NCBI GenBank assembly: GCA_018266295.1
Contig: JAFEAQ010000008.1
Coordinates: 186,001-250,000, forward strand
Direction: 5' to 3'
DNA: 64,000 nt
From: Bdellovibrionales bacterium
GTDB taxonomy: Bacteria; Bdellovibrionota; Bdellovibrionia; Bdellovibrionales; Bdellovibrionaceae
Of the stretch, positions 4,683 to 30,058 are shown in pieces. A program made the translations under genes and the position numbers. Within the stretch, counting starts at the first letter, position 1; the number at the start of each line of letters is the position of its first letter. The notes under the pieces were generated by a model. That model was not told the DNA's origin. It worked only from the letters and a program-made list of their open reading frames with translations, and did not search any database.

Positions 4683-5516
4683 ATGGGAATCAGAATTTCG
4701 ACGAACGTAGCAGCTATCAATGCGCAGAGAACAATGGCTAATGGCCAGCGCGAAATCCAAAAGAGCATGGCTCAATTGGCTTCAGGTTCTCGTATCACTA
4801 AATCTGCAGACGACGCAGCAGGTTTGGCAATCAGTGAAAATTTAAAATCTCAAGGCCGTAGTATGGTCCAAGCTCAACGCAATGCCAACGATGGTATCTC
4901 AATGGTACAAACTGCTGAGGGTGGTTTGAACGAAGTGAGCAACATCTTGACTCGTATCCGTGAGTTGGGCATCCAAGCAGCTTCCGACACAGTAGGTGAT
5001 CGTGAGCGTGGTTTCACTGATAAAGAGGTTCAACAACTTAAATCAGAAATGCAACGTATCTCTCAAACAACTCGTTTCGGAAATACACAGCTTCTGAATG
5101 GTTCAGGTAATACATTCGATTTCCAAGTCGGTATCAACAATAACGACTCAGAAGATCGTATCAAGTATGATTCTTCTATGACAAATGCATCTATCGATGA
5201 GTTGGGCGTAGATGGTCTCGATTTCACAACTAAAGAAGGCGCACAATCAGCTTTGGCTAAATTGGATGACGCTCAATTTAAAGTGAACGGCTACCGCGCA
5301 AGTCTCGGTGCGATTCAAAATCGTTTGCAATCGACATCTGACAACTTGGGTGTAATGTATGAAAACATCTCTGCAGCAAACTCTCGTATCCGTGATACAG
5401 ACGTTGCAGCAGCAACTTCAGAGATGACTAGAAATAGCATTCTCTTGAACGCGAACACAAGCGTACTTGGTCAAGCTAACTCGACTCCACAGCTTGCTTT
5501 GAAACTCTTGGGTTAA
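4683..5516 (+). CDS. fliC: flagellin (second copy)
   Basis: Filament subunit of 277 residues with both conserved ends: GIRISTNVAAINAQR, LASGSRITKSADDAAGLAIS and SEGGLNE-type motifs at the N-terminus, and AANSRIRDTDVA, TSEMTRNSI and LALKLLG at the C-terminus. The variable centre (about residues 140-190, NNNDSEDRIKYDSS) differs from the first flagellin, so this is a diverged paralogue, not a recent duplicate. It has its own sigma-28-type promoter, leader and downstream hairpins, so the two flagellins can be expressed independently. It lies directly upstream of flaG. Confidence 0.97.
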   Translation: MGIRISTNVAAINAQRTMANGQREIQKSMAQLASGSRITKSADDAAGLAISENLKSQGRSMVQAQRNANDGISMVQTAEGGLNEVSNILTRIRELGIQAASDTVGDRERGFTDKEVQQLKSEMQRISQTTRFGNTQLLNGSGNTFDFQVGINNNDSEDRIKYDSSMTNASIDELGVDGLDFTTKEGAQSALAKLDDAQFKVNGYRASLGAIQNRLQSTSDNLGVMYENISAANSRIRDTDVAAATSEMTRNSILLNANTSVLGQANSTPQLALKLLG

Positions 5517-6298: not shown

Positions 6299-7252
6299 AT
6301 GAAATCACGTTACTTGATTTTAGGTATCACAGCAGCTTCTATGTTATCTGCTTGCGGCGGAAAATTTAACGCCCCTAATTCCGTGGAATCTTCTCCGGCC
6401 AATAATAGTGCCTCAATCCCGGACTCTACGACTGGCAATACAGTTCCATCGAACAAAGTATTGCAAACTTTTGGCACAAGCCTTCGTCAAAAGTCTTCAT
6501 TATCAGAGTCGCAGGTCCTAGCGCTTTTAAATTCCGGAGCCGTTGCTATCAACGCCAGTGGTCTCGGTTCAAGCACTGATGTGAATGCCTTAATACCTAT
6601 TATTATTCAGGGAATCAGCCAAAATATCGGTACGACCATTCCTGGTTTGAACAGCTCACAGATCGCGACTCTTATCTCGGGACTTGGAACCTCTGCGATT
6701 GAAGCCTCGTTGGTGTCTTCTGGGGGCGCGATCTCCAATAGCCTGATTCAAAATATCTCAACGACGCTGTTTCAGAATCTTTCCGCGGCTGGGGTTAGCA
6801 ATGGAAATCTGTCTTCGGTATCGAGTGTTTTAATGAGCTCCTTGGTTTCTTATCTCGGAACCTCCGGCTTGCCATCGGCAAATCTGTCGGCCTTGTTGCA
6901 AAGTCTCTCTTCAGGTGCGGTTCTTGGTGTCGGTAATCTCAATGTTGCTAGTCTTGGTTCAGTTATTTTATCTGATATTTTAAATAAGATCGGCGCAGGA
7001 TCCATTCAAGGGCTTTCAGGTATTTCTAGCAGTAGTAGTGTGTTACAAACGCTTATAAACTCTTTGACTGCGGGATCTCAATCGGGCCTGTCTCAAGTTG
7101 TCAGTTCAAATTCATCACTGGGTTTGAATCTTAATCAATTGCTCTCGAATGTGATTTCCGGACAATCAGCCAATTTGGGCAAACTGGGACTCAACCCGAC
7201 AGAACAGCAAGTAATTTCAGTTTTGCTGCAATTGTTGCTGGCAAAAATTTAA
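6299..7252 (+). CDS. low-complexity Ser/Leu/Gly-rich lipoprotein
   Basis: A 317-residue lipoprotein (MKSRYLILGI...MLSACGG) with AAGGAG at 6285-6290. After a disordered Ser/Asn-rich linker (residues 20-60), the rest is almost entirely Ser, Leu, Gly, Asn, Ile and Val in an irregular repeat of the form LxxLLxxLxSG, with no cysteine and almost no charge from about 95 to 300. This looks like a repeated amphipathic surface or adhesin-like fold, but I do not recognise the family. It lies between flaG and fliD, which hints at a surface or sheath role without proving it. Confidence 0.75.
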   Translation: MKSRYLILGITAASMLSACGGKFNAPNSVESSPANNSASIPDSTTGNTVPSNKVLQTFGTSLRQKSSLSESQVLALLNSGAVAINASGLGSSTDVNALIPIIIQGISQNIGTTIPGLNSSQIATLISGLGTSAIEASLVSSGGAISNSLIQNISTTLFQNLSAAGVSNGNLSSVSSVLMSSLVSYLGTSGLPSANLSALLQSLSSGAVLGVGNLNVASLGSVILSDILNKIGAGSIQGLSGISSSSSVLQTLINSLTAGSQSGLSQVVSSNSSLGLNLNQLLSNVISGQSANLGKLGLNPTEQQVISVLLQLLLAKI

Positions 7253-7548: not shown

Positions 7549-8922
7549 GTGGCTGGCATTCGTATCTCCGGAATGGCCTCAGGATTACCGCCGAACATCG
7601 TCGATCAGTTGATGGACGCTGAGCGTATTCCTGTGAAAAACATGGAGCAAACGAGAGTCAAAAACGAAGACAAGCTCAAGCTTGTGACAGACCTCGAAAC
7701 CAAAGTGAACGACATCGTAAAAAATCTCGGTGAGCTGACGAATACCAAGGGGTTCTCTGATAAAAAACTCACGAGCGGTGACCCGAATATCGCTGATGGA
7801 TCTTTGGATCCAAACTTCGCGGTTCCAGGCGATTATAGCTTAGAAGTTCTGCAGCTTGCAGAGAAGCCTTCGGCAATTTCCAACGGCTTTCCTGATAAAG
7901 ACAAAGCTCAGATGGGTGTCGGTTACATCAAGTTCAAAACTCCTGAAGGCACCAAAGAAGTTTATATCAATGGTGAAAACTCGACCCTCACAGGCGTTGC
8001 GGATCAAATCAATGCTGCCAACGCTGGTTTGCGTGCTTCAGTCATTGAAGACCGCAAAGATCCTGAAAATCCCTATCGCCTTCTTGTGGCAGGTTTGGAT
8101 ACGGGGAGTGACAAACAAATCGAATTTCCGAAGATCTATATGCTCGACGGGGATCAGGATATGTACTTCGACGAATCTCGCCCGGCGAAGAACGCGAAAA
8201 TCAAAGTTGATGGCTTTGAAATCGAATTGCCTGAAAACAAAGTGGCGGACCTCTTCCCGGGCGTGACTCTGGATTTGAAGCAAGCAGCTCCGGGCAAACA
8301 AGTACGTATTAACGTCAAAGAAAACTACGAAGTTATTAGCGGCAAGATCAAGAGCTTCGTGGATGCATATAATGCGGTTCTTGGCTTTATTCAGCAGCAG
8401 CACAAACTCACGGCACAGAACGGCAGTAAGACGCCGACAATGGGCCCGTTGGGCGGTGACGGTCTTTTGCGCACGGTAGAGAGCTCTCTCCGCAGTGTGA
8501 TCATGAATCCAATGTATGCGAACGAAAGTCCGATCAAGCTCATCAACGAACTGGGTATCGAGTTTAATCGTAACGGTACTTTGGATTTCAAACAGGACAA
8601 GTTCAATAAGGTTTTGCAATCAAACCCGCAAGGCGTTGCCGAGTTCTTCCGCGGTGACGGGTTTAAGACGGGATTCGTGGTCAACGTAAAGAATGCCGTG
8701 AACAACATGGTGAATTCCCAGTTTGGTCCCATCGGGAACCGCAAAAAAGGGATGCAGGACAAGATTGATCAGATCAACAAGCGTATCGACAACAAAGAAC
8801 GTCAGTTGGTGCAGAAGGAAGAAAGCTTAAGAAAAAAGTTTGCAGATTTAGAATCAAAAATGTCTCAGCTGAACCAGCAAATGGGCTCTGTCCAGGCGAT
8901 GGCTCAAGGGGCAAAAGGTTAA
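7549..8922 (+). CDS. fliD: flagellar filament cap protein FliD
   Basis: Cap protein (HAP2) of 457 residues that promotes flagellin polymerisation at the filament tip. It starts with GTG after AGGAGGA (7534-7540). The N-terminal FliD_N domain begins with the typical IRISGMASGLP and a coiled region to about residue 65; the C-terminal FliD domain, with PTMGPLGGDGLLR and a long final coiled coil (residues 400-450), ends the protein. It is followed after 47 nt by fliS, the usual order. Confidence 0.95.
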   Translation: MAGIRISGMASGLPPNIVDQLMDAERIPVKNMEQTRVKNEDKLKLVTDLETKVNDIVKNLGELTNTKGFSDKKLTSGDPNIADGSLDPNFAVPGDYSLEVLQLAEKPSAISNGFPDKDKAQMGVGYIKFKTPEGTKEVYINGENSTLTGVADQINAANAGLRASVIEDRKDPENPYRLLVAGLDTGSDKQIEFPKIYMLDGDQDMYFDESRPAKNAKIKVDGFEIELPENKVADLFPGVTLDLKQAAPGKQVRINVKENYEVISGKIKSFVDAYNAVLGFIQQQHKLTAQNGSKTPTMGPLGGDGLLRTVESSLRSVIMNPMYANESPIKLINELGIEFNRNGTLDFKQDKFNKVLQSNPQGVAEFFRGDGFKTGFVVNVKNAVNNMVNSQFGPIGNRKKGMQDKIDQINKRIDNKERQLVQKEESLRKKFADLESKMSQLNQQMGSVQAMAQGAKG

Positions 8923-8969: not shown

Positions 8970-9362
8970 ATGAAGAACGCCTATCAGAAGTACAAAACTA
9001 CATCAATTCAAAGTGCGAGCAAAGAGAAGCTGTTGTTGATGCTTTATGAAGGAGCGATTCGCTTCGTCAAGCAAGGGATCAAAGCTGCTGAAGAAAAAAA
9101 CATTGCCGAGCGTGGTTACAACATCGGTAAGGCCTTTGATATCGTCATGGAACTGAACAATACGCTGGACCACAAAGTTGGAGGCGAAATTGCGAAGAAC
9201 CTCGAGCAGCTCTATATGTTTTTAATGGAGCAGTTCACGAAAGCCAATATCTCCGGTTCACCAGAACCTCTTTATGCAAGCCTCAAGGTTTTAGAAAACC
9301 TTTATGACGGCTGGGTACAGGCAGTGGAAAAACTTAAAAAAGAACAAGAAGTTAAGAAATAG
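8970..9362 (+). CDS. fliS: flagellin export chaperone FliS
   Basis: A 130-residue all-helical protein with the FliS signature NAYQKYKTTSIQSASKEKLL and LMLYEGAIRF near the N-terminus. FliS binds the C-terminal helix of flagellin in the cytoplasm and prevents early polymerisation. It sits between fliD and a second small helical gene, with a ribosome binding site AAGGAG just upstream. Confidence 0.95.
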   Translation: MKNAYQKYKTTSIQSASKEKLLLMLYEGAIRFVKQGIKAAEEKNIAERGYNIGKAFDIVMELNNTLDHKVGGEIAKNLEQLYMFLMEQFTKANISGSPEPLYASLKVLENLYDGWVQAVEKLKKEQEVKK

Positions 9363-9370
9363 GAGAGTGT

Positions 9371-9796
9371 ATGCAAAGAATCATCAGTTTATTGCAGGAA
9401 AAGAACCACTACTTGGAAAAGTTCTACTCTCTGAACGAGACGGAAATTCTAAATTTCTCTATGGGAAATTTTGAAAATCTCGAGAACTTCTACAACACGC
9501 GCGAGCGTATTTTGGAAATCATCAGATATCTTGACGGTCAACTTGAGCAGGAAAACTCAGAGACGCATGACTTTAGCGGTATGAGTATCGAAGATCGCCG
9601 TCAAGTTGTTGAGTCGATGCGGACGAAAGACGAATACGTCAGCCGTATTATCGAGCAGGACCTGGAAGTTCTTGCCTGCATCGAGGCTGCGAAGTCGAAC
9701 ATCATCCGTGAACTTCAGGATGTGCGTCGAGCCCGTAAAGCCGTCGGTGGCTACAAGAGCCCGACCTTTAATAAGCGCCTCGACGAGGAAGTTTAG
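9371..9796 (+). CDS. FliT/FlgN-like flagellar chaperone (predicted)
   Basis: A 141-residue protein that is almost wholly helical and charged, starting 8 nt after fliS. Its position, length and coiled-coil pattern (two long helices around residues 1-60 and 75-125) fit the FliT or FlgN class of export chaperones, which bind FliD or hook-associated proteins. Sequence identity in this class is low, so the assignment rests on context and shape; a Bdellovibrio-specific protein is possible. Confidence 0.6.
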   Translation: MQRIISLLQEKNHYLEKFYSLNETEILNFSMGNFENLENFYNTRERILEIIRYLDGQLEQENSETHDFSGMSIEDRRQVVESMRTKDEYVSRIIEQDLEVLACIEAAKSNIIRELQDVRRARKAVGGYKSPTFNKRLDEEV

Positions 9797-9967: not shown

Positions 9968-11050
9968 ATGAACCAGTTGCTTGAATTACACAACCTTCAA
10001 AAGTCCAGCGATCTTTCGGCTGGTCCTGAAACTCATCCAGAAGCTGTCGTAGAAACGGCCGCACCGGCGGTCGCACCCACGGTGTATTTTGACCGTGCCG
10101 AAGCCATCCGTGATTTCGATCGCGAAACCGAGATGGAAAAACCGAAGGCGAGTACTGAGATCTTGGATGAGAAAGCCGCACTTCTCGTAGCCAACGCTCG
10201 CGTCTTGATGAAACATCGTGAATTCGCTCTGGCGCTAAATCTTCTCCGTAGCGCCAGCAACCGTCAGTCTAAGAACACGGTGATTTTAAATCTGTTGGCA
10301 GAGTGTCTTGAGCGCACTCAACGTTTTGACGAAGCATTGATCGTGCGTAGTGCGGCGGTAAAAGTAGCGTGCAACTTTGAGCAAGTGCATAAGCTTGCGA
10401 CACTTTACTACAAGCTGGGTAAAGATGAAGAAGCTCACGGCCGCTACTTCGAGGCGCTGTCTTTGTTGACGGAAGAAAATGAAGCACTTTTTGAAATCTA
10501 TAAGAATATCGGCAACATTTTGGTTCGCCAAGGCGATTTTGAAGGCGCCGAGGAGTATTATAATAAGGCCTACACGTTGAATCCGGGCTGCGACACGCTT
10601 TTGGTCAACTTCGGTACACTTGAAGTTCAGCGTCAGGATTATGACAAGTCTTTGTACTGCTTCCGCCAAGCCGTAAAAGCAAATCCAAAAAATGACAAAG
10701 CATGGGTGGGCCTGGCAATGGTTCACGCGCAGTTCGGCGATCACGCTTTGGCGTGGGCAAATCTGGAGACTGCGGTGGATATCAATCCTAGTAATCGCAC
10801 AGCTGTCTTGCTTTTGGCCAGCTGGGGCGTTCGCGATCGCCGCGAAGATCAAAGCATTGAAGTTCTACAAAATTACCTCGGCCAAGTTGAGTTTGATGAA
10901 GACATGTCTTTGGCACTCATCAATCTCTATTGCAGCAATAGTCAGATCTCTGAAGCCAAGCTTGAGTGTGAGCGTGTGCTTCTATGGAATCCTGAAAATC
11001 AAGAAGTCGCTTCTTTGCGCGAGAAACTTAAAAATATTAAGAGAGCATAA
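9968..11050 (+). CDS. TPR-repeat protein, flagellar/glycosylation cluster
   Basis: A 360-residue soluble protein with a strong AAGGAGA upstream. After a poorly conserved N-terminal 60 residues, it consists of about seven tetratricopeptide repeats; clear units include GDFEGAEEYYNKAYTLNP, DYDKSLYCFRQAVKANP and DHALAWANLETAVDINP. TPR proteins beside glycosyltransferases often act as acceptor-binding or assembly subunits. It begins a tight chain of genes (gaps of 3 nt or overlaps) with a Maf-like and two GT9 proteins, directly after the filament genes, so a role in modifying flagellin is inferred. Confidence 0.75.
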   Translation: MNQLLELHNLQKSSDLSAGPETHPEAVVETAAPAVAPTVYFDRAEAIRDFDRETEMEKPKASTEILDEKAALLVANARVLMKHREFALALNLLRSASNRQSKNTVILNLLAECLERTQRFDEALIVRSAAVKVACNFEQVHKLATLYYKLGKDEEAHGRYFEALSLLTEENEALFEIYKNIGNILVRQGDFEGAEEYYNKAYTLNPGCDTLLVNFGTLEVQRQDYDKSLYCFRQAVKANPKNDKAWVGLAMVHAQFGDHALAWANLETAVDINPSNRTAVLLLASWGVRDRREDQSIEVLQNYLGQVEFDEDMSLALINLYCSNSQISEAKLECERVLLWNPENQEVASLREKLKNIKRA

Positions 11051-11053
11051 GAT

Positions 11054-11677
11054 ATGAGCATTATTTCTTTTTCTGAGAACTCTGCAGGTTATTTGATTCC
11101 ATTTGAAGACGGCAAGGCGCTTTGTGATTTCAATAGTCCCATCGAAGAGGCGGAAGCCTGGGTGGCAAAGCAAGATTTATCGATTTCTAATGAGATCGTT
11201 GTTTTGGGCCTGGGTGGCGGGTTTCACGTCCAGGCATTGAAAGAAGCGCACCCATACTTGAAAATTCACCTGATTGAATGCCGCGATCAACTTTTACCGA
11301 TCTATAAAAAGCAGATTCAATCCCAGGTCGAAAACTATTCTTGTTTTCAAAGCCTCGAGTCTTTGTTGGACTCTGAAGTTTTTGAAACGGTCGTCATGAA
11401 GTCTTTGCCTGTTTATTTCATGCAAAATACTTGGGGCACGCAGGAAGATCTTTTCTATTCACTTTGGAAAAACTTAACTGGACGCTCAGTTTATGCGATT
11501 GCAAAGCATTTCGCGAACTTGGGCATTGAGATCGATGAAGGCACTTTGACTTCGCTCAAAGCAACAGAGAAGCCCCTGACAATCAAAGATGCAACGGACA
11601 TCATTGCCAACTCTAACAGCCCGGCAGCTCAAGAAAGCCGCGGCTACTTTGAGACCTTGAAAGAACTTTTGAGATGA
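11054..11677 (+). CDS. Maf-like Rossmann-fold protein
   Basis: A 207-residue protein with a glycine-rich loop preceded by a hydrophobic strand (EIVVLGLGGGFHVQAL, residues 47-62) and an acidic end to the next strand (IHLIECRDQ, about 73-81). This resembles the N-terminal Rossmann segment of motility-associated-factor (Maf) proteins, which transfer nonulosonic acids to flagellin, but it is much shorter and lacks the rest of a Maf enzyme. An S-adenosylmethionine-like binding protein is an alternative. It starts 3 nt after the TPR gene and overlaps the next gene by 4 nt. Confidence 0.5.
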   Translation: MSIISFSENSAGYLIPFEDGKALCDFNSPIEEAEAWVAKQDLSISNEIVVLGLGGGFHVQALKEAHPYLKIHLIECRDQLLPIYKKQIQSQVENYSCFQSLESLLDSEVFETVVMKSLPVYFMQNTWGTQEDLFYSLWKNLTGRSVYAIAKHFANLGIEIDEGTLTSLKATEKPLTIKDATDIIANSNSPAAQESRGYFETLKELLR

Positions 11678-12924
11678 TGATTTTAGGAATCTCGCTATTA
11701 AGAATTGGGGATCTGGTCCTCCAGAGGCCTCTGATTGAGGGATTGCGTAAGATGCATCCTCAAGGCGAGATCCATTTGCTTGTGAACAAGCAATTCTCTC
11801 AGGTTGAGTTCCTCTTTGCGGGACTTGTCGATAAGTTTATTTATTTTGATCGCGAGGCTTTTCAAAAAAGCTGCGGCGAAAAGGAATACAATATTCTTTG
11901 GGGTTTTAAACACCTTCGCGAGTTCGTTGAAGGTGTGAACCAGAATTCTTACGACACGGTTTACAATTTTACTCATAACCGTCTCACAGCACACTTGTCA
12001 GGACTGATCTCGGCGCAAAAGCGCGTCGGTATCTACTCTCAGAACGGTGCCTTCTACGGGCTGACAAGTCCGTGGATTCAATTCTTTAATAATTACTTTG
12101 GCCGCCGGGAAGCCGCCGGTTTCCATTATACCGAGCTATTGGCAAAAGCTTTGGATATCCCGCTTGAGCAGGGTGCGATTCAATGGCGTCGTCCTTCCGG
12201 TAAAAAAACCGTGTTAATCCAGCCGCTGACCAGTGATGCGAAAAAGAACTGGGATCTGCAAAAGTACAAAAATCTTCTCGAAACTTTGCAGCAGAAAACG
12301 TCCTACCAAGTTCAGGTCCTCGGAGCGCCCTTTGAAAAAGAGCGGCTTTTGCAGCATTTTTCAGAGGAGAATTTACTGATTTGCGATTTTCAAGGAGCTG
12401 AAGCAGCCCTTAAAAATGCAGCCTTGCTGATCACTGGCGACACCAGCATCAAGCACTTGGCGGCGCTTCATGATCTACCGATTCTAGAGCTGGCGTTGGG
12501 AAGCAGTCAGCCGTTACAGGTGGGAGCGTACTCGAACAATTCAGTGATTTTACAGAGCCGGGTGAGCTGTGGCCCTTGTCCACATTCAGAAAAATGCTCT
12601 CAAGTGAGTCATCGTTGCGGTGAACAGTTGCCGGTGACCGCGGCTTATGAAGCCGCGCGAATGCTGTTAAACTTGGATCGCCCCGCGTGGGAAAGTTATG
12701 CGCAGAAATACGTAGAGCTGAATGTATTAAAGACGGAAATCCGTCATCTTATGGGATGGACCGTGCAATGCCTGTCGGTTGCCCAGAAAAATCAATTTGA
12801 TGAAGTTATACAAGCGAAGACGATGATCGTCGAAGAACTGAATCGTCGTACAGAATCAAGTAAGGGAGTTGCAAATGAACAACGAACTCGAAAGCTATCT
12901 GTCAGTGGCGCTGAAGCGTCTTGA
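11674..12924 (+). CDS. GT9 heptosyltransferase-like protein with four-cysteine motif
   Basis: A 416-residue glycosyltransferase family 9 (ADP-heptose transferase) protein. N-terminal domain: GISLLRIGDLVLQRPLI, the typical start. C-terminal domain: the nucleotide-binding ITGDTSIKHLAALHDLP (about residues 252-270). It carries Cys299, Cys302, Cys308 and Cys315 in a CGPC-x5-C-x6-C pattern. Four-cysteine iron fingers are known in the bacterial autotransporter heptosyltransferase family (TibC), which O-heptosylates proteins, whereas LPS enzymes usually lack one. The acceptor is therefore more likely a protein, plausibly flagellin. A C-terminal helical extension follows after residue 340. It overlaps neighbours on both sides. 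Confidence 0.8.
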   Translation: MMILGISLLRIGDLVLQRPLIEGLRKMHPQGEIHLLVNKQFSQVEFLFAGLVDKFIYFDREAFQKSCGEKEYNILWGFKHLREFVEGVNQNSYDTVYNFTHNRLTAHLSGLISAQKRVGIYSQNGAFYGLTSPWIQFFNNYFGRREAAGFHYTELLAKALDIPLEQGAIQWRRPSGKKTVLIQPLTSDAKKNWDLQKYKNLLETLQQKTSYQVQVLGAPFEKERLLQHFSEENLLICDFQGAEAALKNAALLITGDTSIKHLAALHDLPILELALGSSQPLQVGAYSNNSVILQSRVSCGPCPHSEKCSQVSHRCGEQLPVTAAYEAARMLLNLDRPAWESYAQKYVELNVLKTEIRHLMGWTVQCLSVAQKNQFDEVIQAKTMIVEELNRRTESSKGVANEQRTRKLSVSGAEAS

Positions 12925-13048
12925 GAAAGCTTATAAAGAAGTTTTAAAAACCCAAGGTTACGATGAACAAGCAGAGAAGTTGAAGCTTTTGGCGGAGCTC
13001 GTTAAAGAACAGGGACCACATGAAAATTCTAGTCATTCAGCTCGCTAG
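12875..13048 (+). CDS. small helical protein between two GT9 genes
   Basis: A 57-residue frame with AAGGGAG at 12862-12868 before its ATG. It overlaps the end of the first GT9 gene by 50 nt and the start of the second by 29 nt. The product is strongly helical and charged (ALKRLEKAYKEVLKTQGYDE, then EKLKLLAELVKEQ), consistent with a small coiled or partner peptide. The good ribosome binding site and the filling of an otherwise empty 95-nt gap support it; there is no family match from memory. Confidence 0.55.
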   Translation: MNNELESYLSVALKRLEKAYKEVLKTQGYDEQAEKLKLLAELVKEQGPHENSSHSAR

Positions 13049-14474
13049 GCTTGGCGACATTTATATGAGCTGGCCTGTTTTGCGGGCGCTCAAACGGTTG
13101 CATCCGAATTCGGATTTGCATTTTTTAACCCGTTCGAAGTTCGCGGCGGCCACTGAAGGCGTGCGCGTCGTTGATCGGCACATTCAGATGCCGACGTCGA
13201 ATATTCTAGAGCCCATGATTCAACCGGCGGCTGATGTCGATGGCTCGCTGGCGCGTTTGGATCATTTCATCGCGGATCTTCGTAACGAAGAATACGACTG
13301 GGTGATTAATTTGACCTTCTCTCCGGTATCAAGTTACTTGGTGCACGCGATTTCGAATCCAAACACCCGAGTGACGGGATATACCCGCCATGCTGACGGT
13401 TTCCTGAATATTCCGGATGAAGTCAGCGCCTACTTCTACGCCCAAGTTGGTGTCCACAGTCAGAATCGTGTTCACTTGACGGATATTTTTATTTCCATGC
13501 TGGGTTATGAGTACAAAGAAGAAGACTGGCTCGGTCCTCAGCTGGACGGCCGTGATTTCGGCCTGCCGCCGAGTTTTGTGCTGGTTCACATCGGTGCCTC
13601 GGAAGCGAAGAAATCTCTGCCGCCATTTAAGTGGGCAAGAGTTCTAAAAAACTTCTTCGATCACAATTTGGAAACTCCGATTGTGATGATCGGTGCCGCG
13701 AATGAGAGAAATCTCGGTGAAGCGATTGAAGCGGGTGTCAGCCGTGGCCGCATCATCAATTTGATCGGTCAGACGCATCTTCGTGATATTTTCCATCTGC
13801 TTAAGAATGCGCGATTGTTGGTGGGTTGCGATAGTGCGCCGATGCATATGGCGAGCCTGACAAACACGCCATGTTTGAACGTTAGCTTTGATTCGGTCAA
13901 CTTCTGGGAGACCGGCCCCAAGGCAACGCAAAGTTATATCTATAAAGCGAGCTTTCCCGAGGACGTGGTTTCAGAAGAACTCGGGTTGTACATGCACCAG
14001 GTATTGTGCGGGCAATCTCCGGCAGGCCTTATTCAAAGAAGCGCCGGACTTGCAAGCTATCAGGTTCCTCAAGAAGATCCCCGAGAACTCTTCACATGGA
14101 ATCTGATTCAGGCACTTTACCTGAGTGGTGATTTCCCGATCGTGGATGATCTGCAGTTTGTTCAGGCCATCGAGAAGATTTCCGAGGTCAACAAGATCGC
14201 TCAGGAAAACATCCGCGCCATCCCAGACAAAGGTCTGGACGTGATGGGACCTTTGCTGGACCGTGCAGATGAAGTGATGGCGGCCGTGGCACGCATGATT
14301 CCGACGGTAGGACCGATCATAAGATGGTACCAGACGGAAAAGCTACGTATCCCACCTGGCACGCAAGAGAGCGTCGCTAGCCGCAGCTTGGAAATCCACG
14401 AAAAGCTGCAAAGAATCTTGAGCGTTTATATGCTTGAAGATAGCATTAAAGCTCATGAATCTAGCAAAGACTGA
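13020..14474 (+). CDS. second GT9 heptosyltransferase-like protein
   Basis: A 484-residue family 9 glycosyltransferase. It opens with KILVIQLARLGDIYMSWPVL, has the acceptor-domain segment DWVINLTFSPVSSYLVH and the donor-binding motifs VLVHIGASEAKKSLPP and VGCDSAPMHMASLTNTP (around residues 265-290). A 150-residue C-terminal helical region follows that is absent from standard WaaC/WaaF enzymes. Unlike its neighbour, it lacks a clustered four-cysteine motif. The two GT9 genes, the TPR gene and the Maf-like gene are one transcription unit, so I infer a joint glycosylation job. LPS core synthesis is the alternative. Confidence 0.82.
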   Translation: MKILVIQLARLGDIYMSWPVLRALKRLHPNSDLHFLTRSKFAAATEGVRVVDRHIQMPTSNILEPMIQPAADVDGSLARLDHFIADLRNEEYDWVINLTFSPVSSYLVHAISNPNTRVTGYTRHADGFLNIPDEVSAYFYAQVGVHSQNRVHLTDIFISMLGYEYKEEDWLGPQLDGRDFGLPPSFVLVHIGASEAKKSLPPFKWARVLKNFFDHNLETPIVMIGAANERNLGEAIEAGVSRGRIINLIGQTHLRDIFHLLKNARLLVGCDSAPMHMASLTNTPCLNVSFDSVNFWETGPKATQSYIYKASFPEDVVSEELGLYMHQVLCGQSPAGLIQRSAGLASYQVPQEDPRELFTWNLIQALYLSGDFPIVDDLQFVQAIEKISEVNKIAQENIRAIPDKGLDVMGPLLDRADEVMAAVARMIPTVGPIIRWYQTEKLRIPPGTQESVASRSLEIHEKLQRILSVYMLEDSIKAHESSKD

Positions 14475-16503
14475 CGCTGTAAAACCATTAAGAAGCGCCG
14501 ATCCGATACTCTGGATCTCAAAGGATCCTTTGCCTCCAGAGTACCGGGCTTTATCGCTGATCGCGCGAGTGGATTGGGCTGAAGCTCAGTCCGCCGTTCA
14601 GGCTGAGCGTCTTTTGCAGGCCGGCCGTTTCTCTGTCATTCTGATTTCAGCCGATCTTGGCGAAAATGTGGCGCTTGATCTCGTTTACGTTGCCAAAGTT
14701 CATCAGGTTTTTTCAAGCCGGATCATTCGTTCGCAAGATCTTAACGAGCGTGTTGTACGCGAAGGAATTAATCGCGGCCAGGTTCAGCGAATTATTCCGC
14801 AGGAACTCGATGTTCAAACTTTCCGTGGCTTCCTGAACAGTGCCCTTGAGAAACATCTGCAGAGATCGCAGCAATCGCAGCTTCTCAAAGAATCTTCTCA
14901 AAGAAACCGTGAACTCGAAATTCTGACCAGCGGGCTGGAACAAATCGTTGAAGAACGAACTTTGCATATTGAGATCTCGCACACCGAAGAAAGCGAAAAA
15001 CTGAGCCGCGAGCGCCTTTTGATCCGTTTTATCAAAGAACTCGCGGGACAGAGCTCTTTCGAGGATCTTTTGCAGGTTCTACGCAAAGAGCTTCGTAAGT
15101 TTCACAAATTAGGTGATCCGATTCTTGCTTATCGGGTGACCGGCTCAAAAACATCTCTGATGAGTTTTCATGGCGGCCAGTTTAGTCAGTCAGAGACAGC
15201 TCTTGAAATCGAATTCCCTGATAAGTATCAGCCGAACCATCCAGAGATGGCAAAACACTTTGCAAATCATTATGGACGGCCTTTTATTAAAACTTTGATT
15301 TTCCCTCTGGAGTTGAAGCTGATTCGTCAGTTCGCCGAGGGCAAGGCCGAAGCGATTTTGTGTTTTGAGAGTTCACTTGTCGACAAGGAACTGGGGTTTT
15401 TCCTCGAATACATGAATGACCGCCTCGGTCCTTTGAGCATGGCCTTGGATCGGGTCTTATTGGACAATCAGCTTTCAAGTTTCTCTTATCGCTGGGAAAA
15501 AACTTTCGATAGCATGAAAGATCCTATTGCTATCGTTGACGTCGACTATGAAGTCATTCGTGCCAATAAGAAGTTTTCGGTGATCGGTCACGAAAAATGC
15601 CACGAGAGTTTTGCCGGGAGTAAAAAAATCTGTACCGGCTGTCCTGTGGCCCAGGCGCTGAAGGAAAAAACTTCGGAAAGCGGGCAGATCAAAGTCGGTC
15701 CGCGCACGTATCAAGTCTATAGCTATCCTATTGCCAGCGAAGACGGTGGCCGCTCAACAACCGTGGTGAATCAGTATGTGGATATCACGGAGTCTCGTGA
15801 GCTTTACCTAAAAGTTCTTCAGAGTGAAAAAATGGGTGCCATTGGAAAGCTGGCCGGTCATATCGCGCATGAGCTGAATAATCCGCTGACGGGCCTTCGT
15901 TCTTTGGCGCAGGTTTTGTTGCACGAAGCTCCCAAGGGAGAGGCTTTGCATTCAGACCTCGTCGAAATTGAAAAGGCAGCGGTTCGTTCGCAAAAGATTA
16001 TTAAAAACCTTCTTGAATTCTCGCAAAACGATACGCAGCCTCAGGCGCTTATTTCGGTCGATGAGATTGTTGAAAAAACTTTGCCGATGCTGAAAACCGC
16101 TTTGCGCTTGCATCGCTTTCAGTTGCATCTCGATGCTCGTCAGGCGCTGGTTGAAGTGGAGCCGCATCTTTTGCAGCAGGTGGTGTTTAATCTCGTGAAT
16201 AACGCCTGCCAGGCGATGAAAGATCCGGGGACGTTGACCGTGACCTCGGGAATTTCCGGGAAGAATCCCCGCATGGTGGAGTTGCGCGTGTCAGACACCG
16301 GCCCAGGCATTCCCCAGGAAATTCAAAACAAAATATTCGAAGCTTTCTTTACAACCAAAAAAGAGGGATTGGGCACGGGCCTTGGTTTAAGTATGTCGAA
16401 GTCCATCGTTGAAAGATTCGGCGGCGACATCCACTTTGAAACCGAGTCAGGCAAAGGGGCCGTGTTCTGTATTACTTTGCCTATTAAAGAGTTCGCAGCA
16501 TGA
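14455..16503 (+). CDS. hybrid-like sensor histidine kinase
   Basis: A soluble kinase of 682 residues from the ATG at 14455, which overlaps the previous gene by 20 nt (the frame is open from 14434). Order: a degenerate receiver-like domain (residues 1-130, no standard acidic triad), a coiled coil (135-185), a GAF-like region (190-345), a PAS domain (about 350-450) with a CHESFAG...CTGC cysteine cluster, a HisKA helix with His472 in GHIAHELNNP, and a HATPase with NLVNNACQAM, DTGPGIP and GLGTGLGLSM. There are no membrane segments. The response regulator begins 4 nt before its end, so they are a pair. Confidence 0.9.
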   Translation: MNLAKTDAVKPLRSADPILWISKDPLPPEYRALSLIARVDWAEAQSAVQAERLLQAGRFSVILISADLGENVALDLVYVAKVHQVFSSRIIRSQDLNERVVREGINRGQVQRIIPQELDVQTFRGFLNSALEKHLQRSQQSQLLKESSQRNRELEILTSGLEQIVEERTLHIEISHTEESEKLSRERLLIRFIKELAGQSSFEDLLQVLRKELRKFHKLGDPILAYRVTGSKTSLMSFHGGQFSQSETALEIEFPDKYQPNHPEMAKHFANHYGRPFIKTLIFPLELKLIRQFAEGKAEAILCFESSLVDKELGFFLEYMNDRLGPLSMALDRVLLDNQLSSFSYRWEKTFDSMKDPIAIVDVDYEVIRANKKFSVIGHEKCHESFAGSKKICTGCPVAQALKEKTSESGQIKVGPRTYQVYSYPIASEDGGRSTTVVNQYVDITESRELYLKVLQSEKMGAIGKLAGHIAHELNNPLTGLRSLAQVLLHEAPKGEALHSDLVEIEKAAVRSQKIIKNLLEFSQNDTQPQALISVDEIVEKTLPMLKTALRLHRFQLHLDARQALVEVEPHLLQQVVFNLVNNACQAMKDPGTLTVTSGISGKNPRMVELRVSDTGPGIPQEIQNKIFEAFFTTKKEGLGTGLGLSMSKSIVERFGGDIHFETESGKGAVFCITLPIKEFAA

Positions 16504-16865
16504 AGATCTTAATCGTCGATGATGAACCTCTTGTTCGCCGTTCACTGGGCCGCGCTTTGAAAAGCCATGGCCACGATATTCTTGAAGCCGAAGACGGTCT
16601 GCAGGGGCTGCAAATGTGGCGCGAACAGAAGCCGGACTTGGTCTTTTTGGATGTCCTTATGCCGAAAATGACGGGCCCCCAGGTGCTGTCCGAGGTCGGT
16701 AAGCAGAGATCTGGCAAAGTTATTCTGATTTCAGCGTTTTCTGGTGAGCATAATATGGAGACGGCCTTGCAAATGGGCGCGGATCTTTTTATACCAAAGC
16801 CGTTTGATGATATTTTTTCGATTGTTGCAGTCGCCGAGAAAATGGCTGAGGGTTTGCAGAAATGA
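16500..16865 (+). CDS. single-domain response regulator
   Basis: A 121-residue CheY-like receiver without an output domain. The acidic pair is in KILIVDDEP (Asp7, Asp8), the phospho-acceptor is Asp51 in VFLDVLMP, followed by ISAF and the conserved lysine in FIPKPFDD. It overlaps the kinase gene by 4 nt and so probably receives phosphate from it. With no DNA-binding part, it should act by protein interaction; its place in the flagellar/glycosylation chain makes a motor or assembly target plausible. Confidence 0.92.
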   Translation: MKILIVDDEPLVRRSLGRALKSHGHDILEAEDGLQGLQMWREQKPDLVFLDVLMPKMTGPQVLSEVGKQRSGKVILISAFSGEHNMETALQMGADLFIPKPFDDIFSIVAVAEKMAEGLQK

Positions 16866-29590: not shown

Positions 29591-30058
29591 TTACTTTTGA
29601 GCTTTTTCGATGAGCTTGGTGGTGGACTTGCCATCCACGAATTGCAAAGACATCACCTTGCCGCCGTTGGCGATCACGAAATCGCTGCCGACGATCTGAT
29701 CGATCTTCCAGTCGCCACCCTTAACGAGGATATCGGGCTTCACGGTTTCAATCAGCTTGAGCGGAGTGTCTTCGTTAAAGATCACAGTGTAATCAACGGC
29801 ACCGAGTGCTGCCAAGATCTCTGCGCGGTCGGCTTCGATCTGCACAGGGCGGGTAGGGCCTTTTAAAACTCTCACGCTGGCATCGCTATTCACACCGACA
29901 ACGAGAACGTCGCCGAGCTTTTTAGCTTCTTGCAAATAGCGAACGTGGCCGACATGAAGCAAGTCAAAGCAGCCGTTCGTGAAGACGATTTTTTTATTTT
30001 GAGATTTCAGTGAAGCCAGATCCTTGGCAATTGATTCGAATTTAGAGACCTGGCCCAT
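29591..30058 (-). CDS. rfaE2: heptose 1-phosphate adenylyltransferase
   Basis: A 155-residue nucleotidyltransferase equal to the second half of HldE/RfaE: FTNGCFDLLHVGHVRYL with the HxGH motif, VVGVNSDASV, the KGPTRPV loop and DILVKGGDW. It makes ADP-glycero-manno-heptose from the 1-phosphate. The kinase half is absent here and may be encoded elsewhere. The product is the donor that GT9 enzymes such as the two in this window use. It is the last gene of a minus-strand block. Confidence 0.88.
   Translation of the reverse strand: MGQVSKFESIAKDLASLKSQNKKIVFTNGCFDLLHVGHVRYLQEAKKLGDVLVVGVNSDASVRVLKGPTRPVQIEADRAEILAALGAVDYTVIFNEDTPLKLIETVKPDILVKGGDWKIDQIVGSDFVIANGGKVMSLQFVDGKSTTKLIEKAQK

Follow-up and report, generated by a model that had tools for sequence, protein, structure and literature searches.

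A GT9 glycosyltransferase pair linked to flagellar genes in Bdellovibrionota: a candidate module for flagellin O-glycosylation

Two genes encoding GT9-family glycosyltransferases, which we call GT9a and GT9b, are linked to the flagellar genes of Bdellovibrionota across the phylum, and they belong to clades that are distinct from those of the lipopolysaccharide (LPS)-type GT9 enzymes. We analyzed the pair in a stretch of 64,000 nucleotides from a Bdellovibrionales bacterium (contig JAFEAQ010000008.1, positions 186,001 to 250,000), which at its full length is referred to here as the window. Five consecutive genes on the plus strand are central to this work: they encode a tetratricopeptide repeat (TPR) protein of 360 aa (9968-11050), a Rossmann protein of 207 aa that resembles the Maf N-terminal domain and is here named MafN (11054-11677), GT9a (11674-12924; 416 aa), a small conserved protein of 57 aa (MNNELESYLSVALKRLEKAYKEVLKTQGYDEQAEKLKLLAELVKEQGPHENSSHSAR; 12875-13048), and GT9b (13020-14474; 484 aa). 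On balance, the evidence leans towards the view that these genes form a dedicated cytoplasmic module for the O-glycosylation of flagellin, probably via ADP-heptose.

Linkage of the GT9 pair to flagellar genes

The flagellar link of the GT9 genes, which an earlier note on this DNA had drawn from the window only, is borne out by phylum-wide synteny, and this evidence is much stronger than that of a single window. Forty loci were taken from relatives, 39 of them via a GT9a match, and in about 36 of the 40, from across the order, the gene order fliD-fliS-fliT-TPR-MafN-GT9a-GT9b is kept, followed by the genes for a sensor histidine kinase (HK) and a response regulator (RR). At the corresponding place, other families of Bdellovibrionota contain the order fliD-fliS-fliT-MafN-GT9-GT9-orf-HK-RR or fliD-fliS-fliT-TPR-GT9b. 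In a survey of 291 genomes drawn from the phylum, which are related to one another so that the counts are not independent events, a GT9b-type protein was found in 158 genomes and FliS in 258, and comparison of the two lists places FliS in 157 of the 158 GT9b-positive genomes. Furthermore, in all 81 of the placeable pairs that lie on one contig, GT9b and fliS are within 8.7 kb of each other (median 4.2 kb), and 30 of these pairs fall outside the class to which the window belongs; seven more pairs sit on separate contigs. The GT9b matches in named contigs came from Bdellovibrio and other Bdellovibrionota, except for one metagenome-assembled genome labelled Streptomyces griseus and one with a Proteobacteria-only label, and a search of a plasmid collection for GT9b returned just distant, generic GT9s.

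In a tree of 130 sequences all flagellar GT9s are split from the LPS-type GT9s (support 0.986), and the GT9b proteins of several families fall into one clade (support 0.997). The linkage to fliS across the phylum, taken together with this separation in the tree, points to an old GT9 lineage that became specialised for the flagellum within the phylum.

The genes named here are open reading frame (ORF) calls in the window, and their domains were scored with the curated cut-offs of Pfam and NCBIfam/TIGR. According to the earlier note, the TPR, Maf-like and two GT9 genes formed one transcription unit directly after fliD-fliS. All of these genes are real and were correctly placed, but the account overlooked both the 57-aa gene, which overlaps GT9a at its end and GT9b at its start, and a small chaperone gene of the fliT/FlgN type (9371-9796, plus strand; weak matches to PF05400/PF05130) that intervenes and whose position is kept in relatives. 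Upstream of it lie the conserved neighbour fliD, for the filament cap (7549-8922, plus strand), and fliS, for the flagellin export chaperone (8970-9362, plus strand; 131.9 bits for PF02561 and above the cut-off of TIGR00208). A gap of 171 bp separates the fliT/FlgN-like gene from the TPR gene, and the genes from TPR to GT9a abut or overlap. Promoter-like and terminator-like sites were no more frequent in a consensus scan than in shuffled sequences. Downstream of GT9b, the HK gene (14434-16503, plus strand) is another conserved neighbour, and the RR gene (16500-16865) comes after it.

Catalytic residues, cysteine cluster and sugar donor

GT9a and GT9b score 61.9 and 55.1 bits, respectively, for PF01075, both well above the cut-off of 22 bits. 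Residues Asp13, Lys191 and Asp256 of GT9a and Asp13, Lys198 and Asp271 of GT9b align with Asp13, Lys192 and Asp261 of WaaC. These positions are conserved: among 54 GT9a-type sequences Asp13 is present in 54, Lys191 in 53 and Asp256 in 51, and the corresponding numbers for Asp13, Lys198 and Asp271 among 52 GT9b-type sequences are 51, 50 and 51. The pair thus has its family, fold and catalytic residues in common with WaaC and WaaF, which are also its best matches in sequence and structure. These two ADP-heptose enzymes were the closest fold matches of the predicted GT9a model, and the GT9 structures matched in a profile search of the PDB were WaaC, WaaF and 3tov. However, GT9a and GT9b differ from WaaC and WaaF in that they belong to another clade, carry C-terminal extensions (conserved and of about 165 aa in GT9b) and are encoded in a flagellar operon context. 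Neither protein reached the cut-offs for LPS heptosyltransferases I and II (TIGR02193/TIGR02195), the scores being 45.7 bits for GT9a and 70.7 bits for GT9b against 185.3 (TIGR02193), and a near-invariant Arg10 is found in the module GT9s where WaaC has Ser10. Separate LPS-type GT9 paralogues are encoded in the genome of the window and in its relatives.

The comparison with TibC and AAH (the BAHT enzymes) is of interest, since GT9a and GT9b would likewise carry out protein O-heptosylation if our inference is right. TibC is a GT9-related enzyme with a GT-B fold, a catalytic Asp and four cysteines near the C-terminal lobe, features that have counterparts here. The earlier note had likened four cysteines of GT9a to the iron finger of TibC-type enzymes. 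The cysteines are exactly at C299, C302, C308 and C315 (C299-x2-C302-x5-C308-x6-C315; 12568-12618, plus strand), but the likeness to the iron finger was rejected. The iron ligands of TibC are C339, C342, C358 and C370, with a spacing of x2-x15-x11 instead of x2-x5-x6, and TibC requires a beta-barrel at its N terminus, about 97 residues long, and uses Asp110 as its catalytic base (PMC4358343). Such a barrel is absent from GT9a and GT9b: the catalytic domain of GT9a starts from residue 1, and its Asp13 corresponds to Asp13 of WaaC. Clusters of four cysteines are present at the equivalent place in non-flagellar GT9 paralogues of the window's genome, and, with the spacing x2-x7-x6, in all 19 readable LPS-type GT9s of relatives (one of 20 was unreadable). 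Conversely, three GT9a orthologues of genus g7, one of them in genome G036, are without the cluster and keep the catalytic residues. Moreover, TibC was absent both from the matches of the PDB profile search and from the 50 best fold matches of the GT9a model, and no NCBIfam match to the AAH/TibC family was found among 40 orthologues. Because the spacing differs, the clusters are common in LPS-type GT9s and three orthologues do without them, the cysteines are no evidence for a TibC-type enzyme. They are a common feature of GT9 enzymes, in GT9a probably forming a structural metal site of a widespread kind, and four-cysteine clusters in this family should not be taken as a signature of protein heptosyltransferases.

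With respect to the sugar donor, the genome of the window contains hldA, hldE-II and hldD genes whose products score above the curated cut-offs, and a gmhA-like gene that scores below its cut-off. The adenylyltransferase gene at 29591, which the earlier note had put forward as the donor gene, does encode a real heptose-1-phosphate adenylyltransferase (HldE-II; 29591-30058, minus strand; 220.7 bits for TIGR02199, cut-off 181.5). Its tie to the module was not upheld, because the gene lies elsewhere in the genomes of relatives and is near-universal, HldE-II being found in 272 of the 291 genomes of the phylum. Since it is common among both GT9b-positive genomes (153 of 158) and GT9b-negative ones (119 of 133), co-occurrence with the heptose pathway was discarded as proof of the donor. 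A nonulosonic acid is unlikely because no true NeuB, only weak synthase-like matches, was found in the window's genome. Based on the conserved WaaC catalytic residues, the presence of the pathway genes and the absence of a true NeuB, ADP-heptose appears to be the likeliest donor, short of proof, and we consider it reasonably probable that the sugar is heptose.

Partner proteins and proposed working

The TPR protein matches several TPR families in Pfam and is presumably the subunit that binds or targets flagellin. Its gene adjoins fliT throughout Bdellovibrionia and has stayed there in lineages that lost the GT9 genes. The gene next to it had been described as Maf-like. Its resemblance to Maf is confined to the N-terminal domain and is weak: PF20157 (Maf_flag10_N) gave weak or borderline matches in 15 of 36 MafN orthologues, with a best E value of 3.5e-6, one match at the cut-off and an E value of 0.011 for the window protein, and the profile of the family matched the Maf structure 5MU5 (PMC9298399) weakly, at an E value of 0.97. 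The catalytic domain of Maf (PF01973), on the other hand, found no Pfam match in the 207-aa protein, nor anywhere in the window's genome. An AlphaFold model of MafN has a Rossmann-like fold, with a predicted local distance difference test (pLDDT) score of 91; a fold search with it gave no PDB match below 1e-3, the best matches being Rossmann methyltransferases and spermidine synthases. With neither a catalytic PF01973 domain nor a clear fold match, identity with a full Maf protein was rejected. Among 60 relatives, PF01973 proteins were seen only at L163 and L164, in genomes G001 and G036, both away from the flagellar module, and in G036 about 5 kb separate the gene from a strong NeuB.

The 57-aa gene is located upstream of GT9b in most loci of Bdellovibrionia, some of which have neither MafN nor GT9a, and is not present in loci that are devoid of GT9 genes. 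No Pfam family fits its product, and in a split-half profile analysis 15 of 18 held-out sequences beat the best of 360 shuffles.

Two known systems suggest how these proteins might work together. In Caulobacter the TPR domain of FlmG binds flagellins for glycosylation (PMC7591256), and Maf glycosylates flagellin in the cytoplasm ahead of the binding of a FliS-type chaperone (PMC4065374). By analogy with these two cases, the TPR protein, perhaps together with MafN, would bind newly made flagellin in the cytoplasm and present it to GT9a and GT9b; a function of both proteins in substrate binding seems fairly likely to us. GT9a and GT9b, either in turn or at different sites, would then glycosylate Ser/Thr residues with a nucleotide sugar as donor, the most likely one being ADP-heptose drawn from the pool of LPS-core precursors, and the modified flagellin would be handed to FliS for export. 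The order in which the two enzymes act and the role of the 57-aa protein are points that we infer. The presumed acceptor, for which we have good confidence, is the flagellin FliC, encoded by a 277-aa ORF in the window (4683-5516, plus strand) with orthologues at the corresponding locus in relatives. Thus, the proposal in the earlier note of heptose on flagellin is supported as regards a dedicated flagellar module with GT9s of the ADP-heptose type, for which synteny, tree, residues and pathway genes speak, whereas both acceptor and sugar are only inferred.

The proposed module resembles FlmG in linking a TPR part to a GT-B glycosyltransferase that would act on flagellin in the cytoplasm before secretion. 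However, FlmG is a fused TPR-glycosyltransferase and its sugar is pseudaminic acid, whereas here the TPR and glycosyltransferase genes are separate, the glycosyltransferases are a pair of GT9s, and the set also includes a Maf-N-like partner and the 57-aa gene. With Maf systems it shares the weak N-terminal match of MafN and a flagellar location beside chaperone genes, but the window's genome has neither PF01973 nor a true NeuB, and sugar transfer is presumably performed by the GT9s.

The earlier note had regarded heptose on flagellin or another flagellar protein as a novel link for this group. A precedent exists elsewhere: the flagellin of enterotoxigenic Escherichia coli (ETEC) is heptosylated, as shown by direct mass spectrometry (MS) for 14 Ser/Thr residues; in that case the responsible enzyme is not established and no dedicated GT9 pair in the flagellar operon has been described (PMC5000012). 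The novelty would lie in a GT9 system that is dedicated to the flagellum and spans the phylum; we found no description of it in the literature searched (most subscription journals were not covered). It is conceivable, although we advance this tentatively, that Bdellovibrionota possess an ancestral system for flagellin O-heptosylation, in which two flagella-specific GT9 lineages derived from the LPS-core family operate alongside three partners: a TPR adaptor, a Maf-N-like protein that is catalytically empty, and the 57-aa protein. Work on flagellin glycosylation has so far dealt mostly with the nonulosonic-acid systems of Maf and FlmG. If true, the system would be a third route beside these two, with a separate origin, in LPS-type GT9s, and it would tie ADP-heptose, a core metabolite, to the motility of predatory bacteria. 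The module provides a testable set of genes in the lab-tractable predator B. bacteriovorus HD100. Among the HD100 genes of this stretch, just fliD and fliS (Bd0611/Bd0612) were found discussed in the literature, and the glycosyltransferases were not.

Alternative explanations and loss of the GT9 genes

It is possible to accept a flagellin-glycosylation module as proposed and to suppose that the GT9 pair has shifted to a nucleotide sugar other than ADP-heptose. Both flagellar GT9 clades diverge from the LPS heptosyltransferases, no curated heptosyltransferase cut-off was reached by either protein, Arg10 stands in place of Ser10 of WaaC, and the GT9b-positive genomes G056 and G243, which are at least 93% complete, have no HldE-II match. 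We nevertheless consider such a shift unlikely, given that the positions of the WaaC catalytic base and of its sugar and phosphate contacts are kept, that ADP-heptose enzymes head the structural matches, and that a nonulosonic acid is unlikely in a genome with only weak synthase-like matches and no true NeuB.

The flagella of Bdellovibrio are sheathed by the outer membrane. GT9 is historically an LPS-core family and GT9a matches TIGR02193, albeit below the cut-off, and so the two enzymes might decorate LPS, for example a special core in the flagellar sheath, their location reflecting co-regulation only. This explanation appears improbable, because LPS-type GT9s exist separately in those genomes and branch apart, only one of the 33 FliS-negative genomes has a module GT9, and LPS synthesis does not call for a TPR/Maf-N partner set beside flagellin chaperones. 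It is also conceivable that another flagellar protein, such as the FliD cap or the hook, is the target, or that GT9a and GT9b are non-catalytic assembly factors. The module genes come after fliD, the TPR gene persists without GT9, and some lineages have divergent proteins between TPR and HK from which the GT9 motifs are gone; but within the main clades the catalytic residues hardly vary, FliS is the flagellin chaperone, and known flagellar systems with TPR or Maf proteins act on flagellin (PMC7591256, PMC4065374), which makes this explanation improbable in our view.

Several observations weigh against flagellin O-heptosylation by the proposed module. The assignment of the 207-aa protein to Maf-N is weak, five GT9b-positive genomes have no HldE-II match, and the presence of HldE is no test of the donor because it is near-universal in the phylum. 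No Ser/Thr position of flagellin tracks the module in a comparison of 32 flagellins from module-positive and 7 from module-negative genomes, and biochemical or MS data on Bdellovibrio flagellin were not found in the literature searched. In addition, about 100 of the 258 FliS-positive genomes have no GT9b match, and in genus g3 (loci L138 and L141-L144, which include genome G002) fliT-TPR-HK is retained and MafN, GT9a, GT9b and the 57-aa gene are absent. Genus g3 is a case of natural loss of the GT9 genes in a flagellated lineage. Considering the FliS-positive genomes without GT9b and the TPR gene without any GT9 in g3, flagella do not depend on the module.

Some loci show other changes in this region. 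Divergent proteins are encoded after the TPR gene at L145 (5617-6978), L147 (9788-11137), L146 (5269-6702), L149 (4134-5609) and L150 (4598-5641); at least two of them are GT9-like, and the GT9 catalytic motifs are missing from them in part or altogether; they are possibly decayed or re-purposed GT9s. In one Bdellovibrio locus (L182, genome G277), GT9a and GT9b are both truncated (243 and 278 aa), as if the junction between them had been removed by a deletion or a sequencing error. The locus of genome G017 is distributed over two contigs (L055 and L183), one with fliD to GT9a and the 57-aa gene and the other with GT9b-HK. In three relatives, at L139 (8474-9664), L140 (1353-2585) and L154 (3085-4296), fliT and the TPR gene are separated by an inserted gene for a predicted lipoprotein, about 400 aa long, that carries a heme-type motif (CxxCH). 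Finally, the window itself encodes a Ser/Leu-rich predicted lipoprotein of 317 aa (6299-7252, plus strand) between flaG and fliD, which is unmatched in the 40 loci of relatives.

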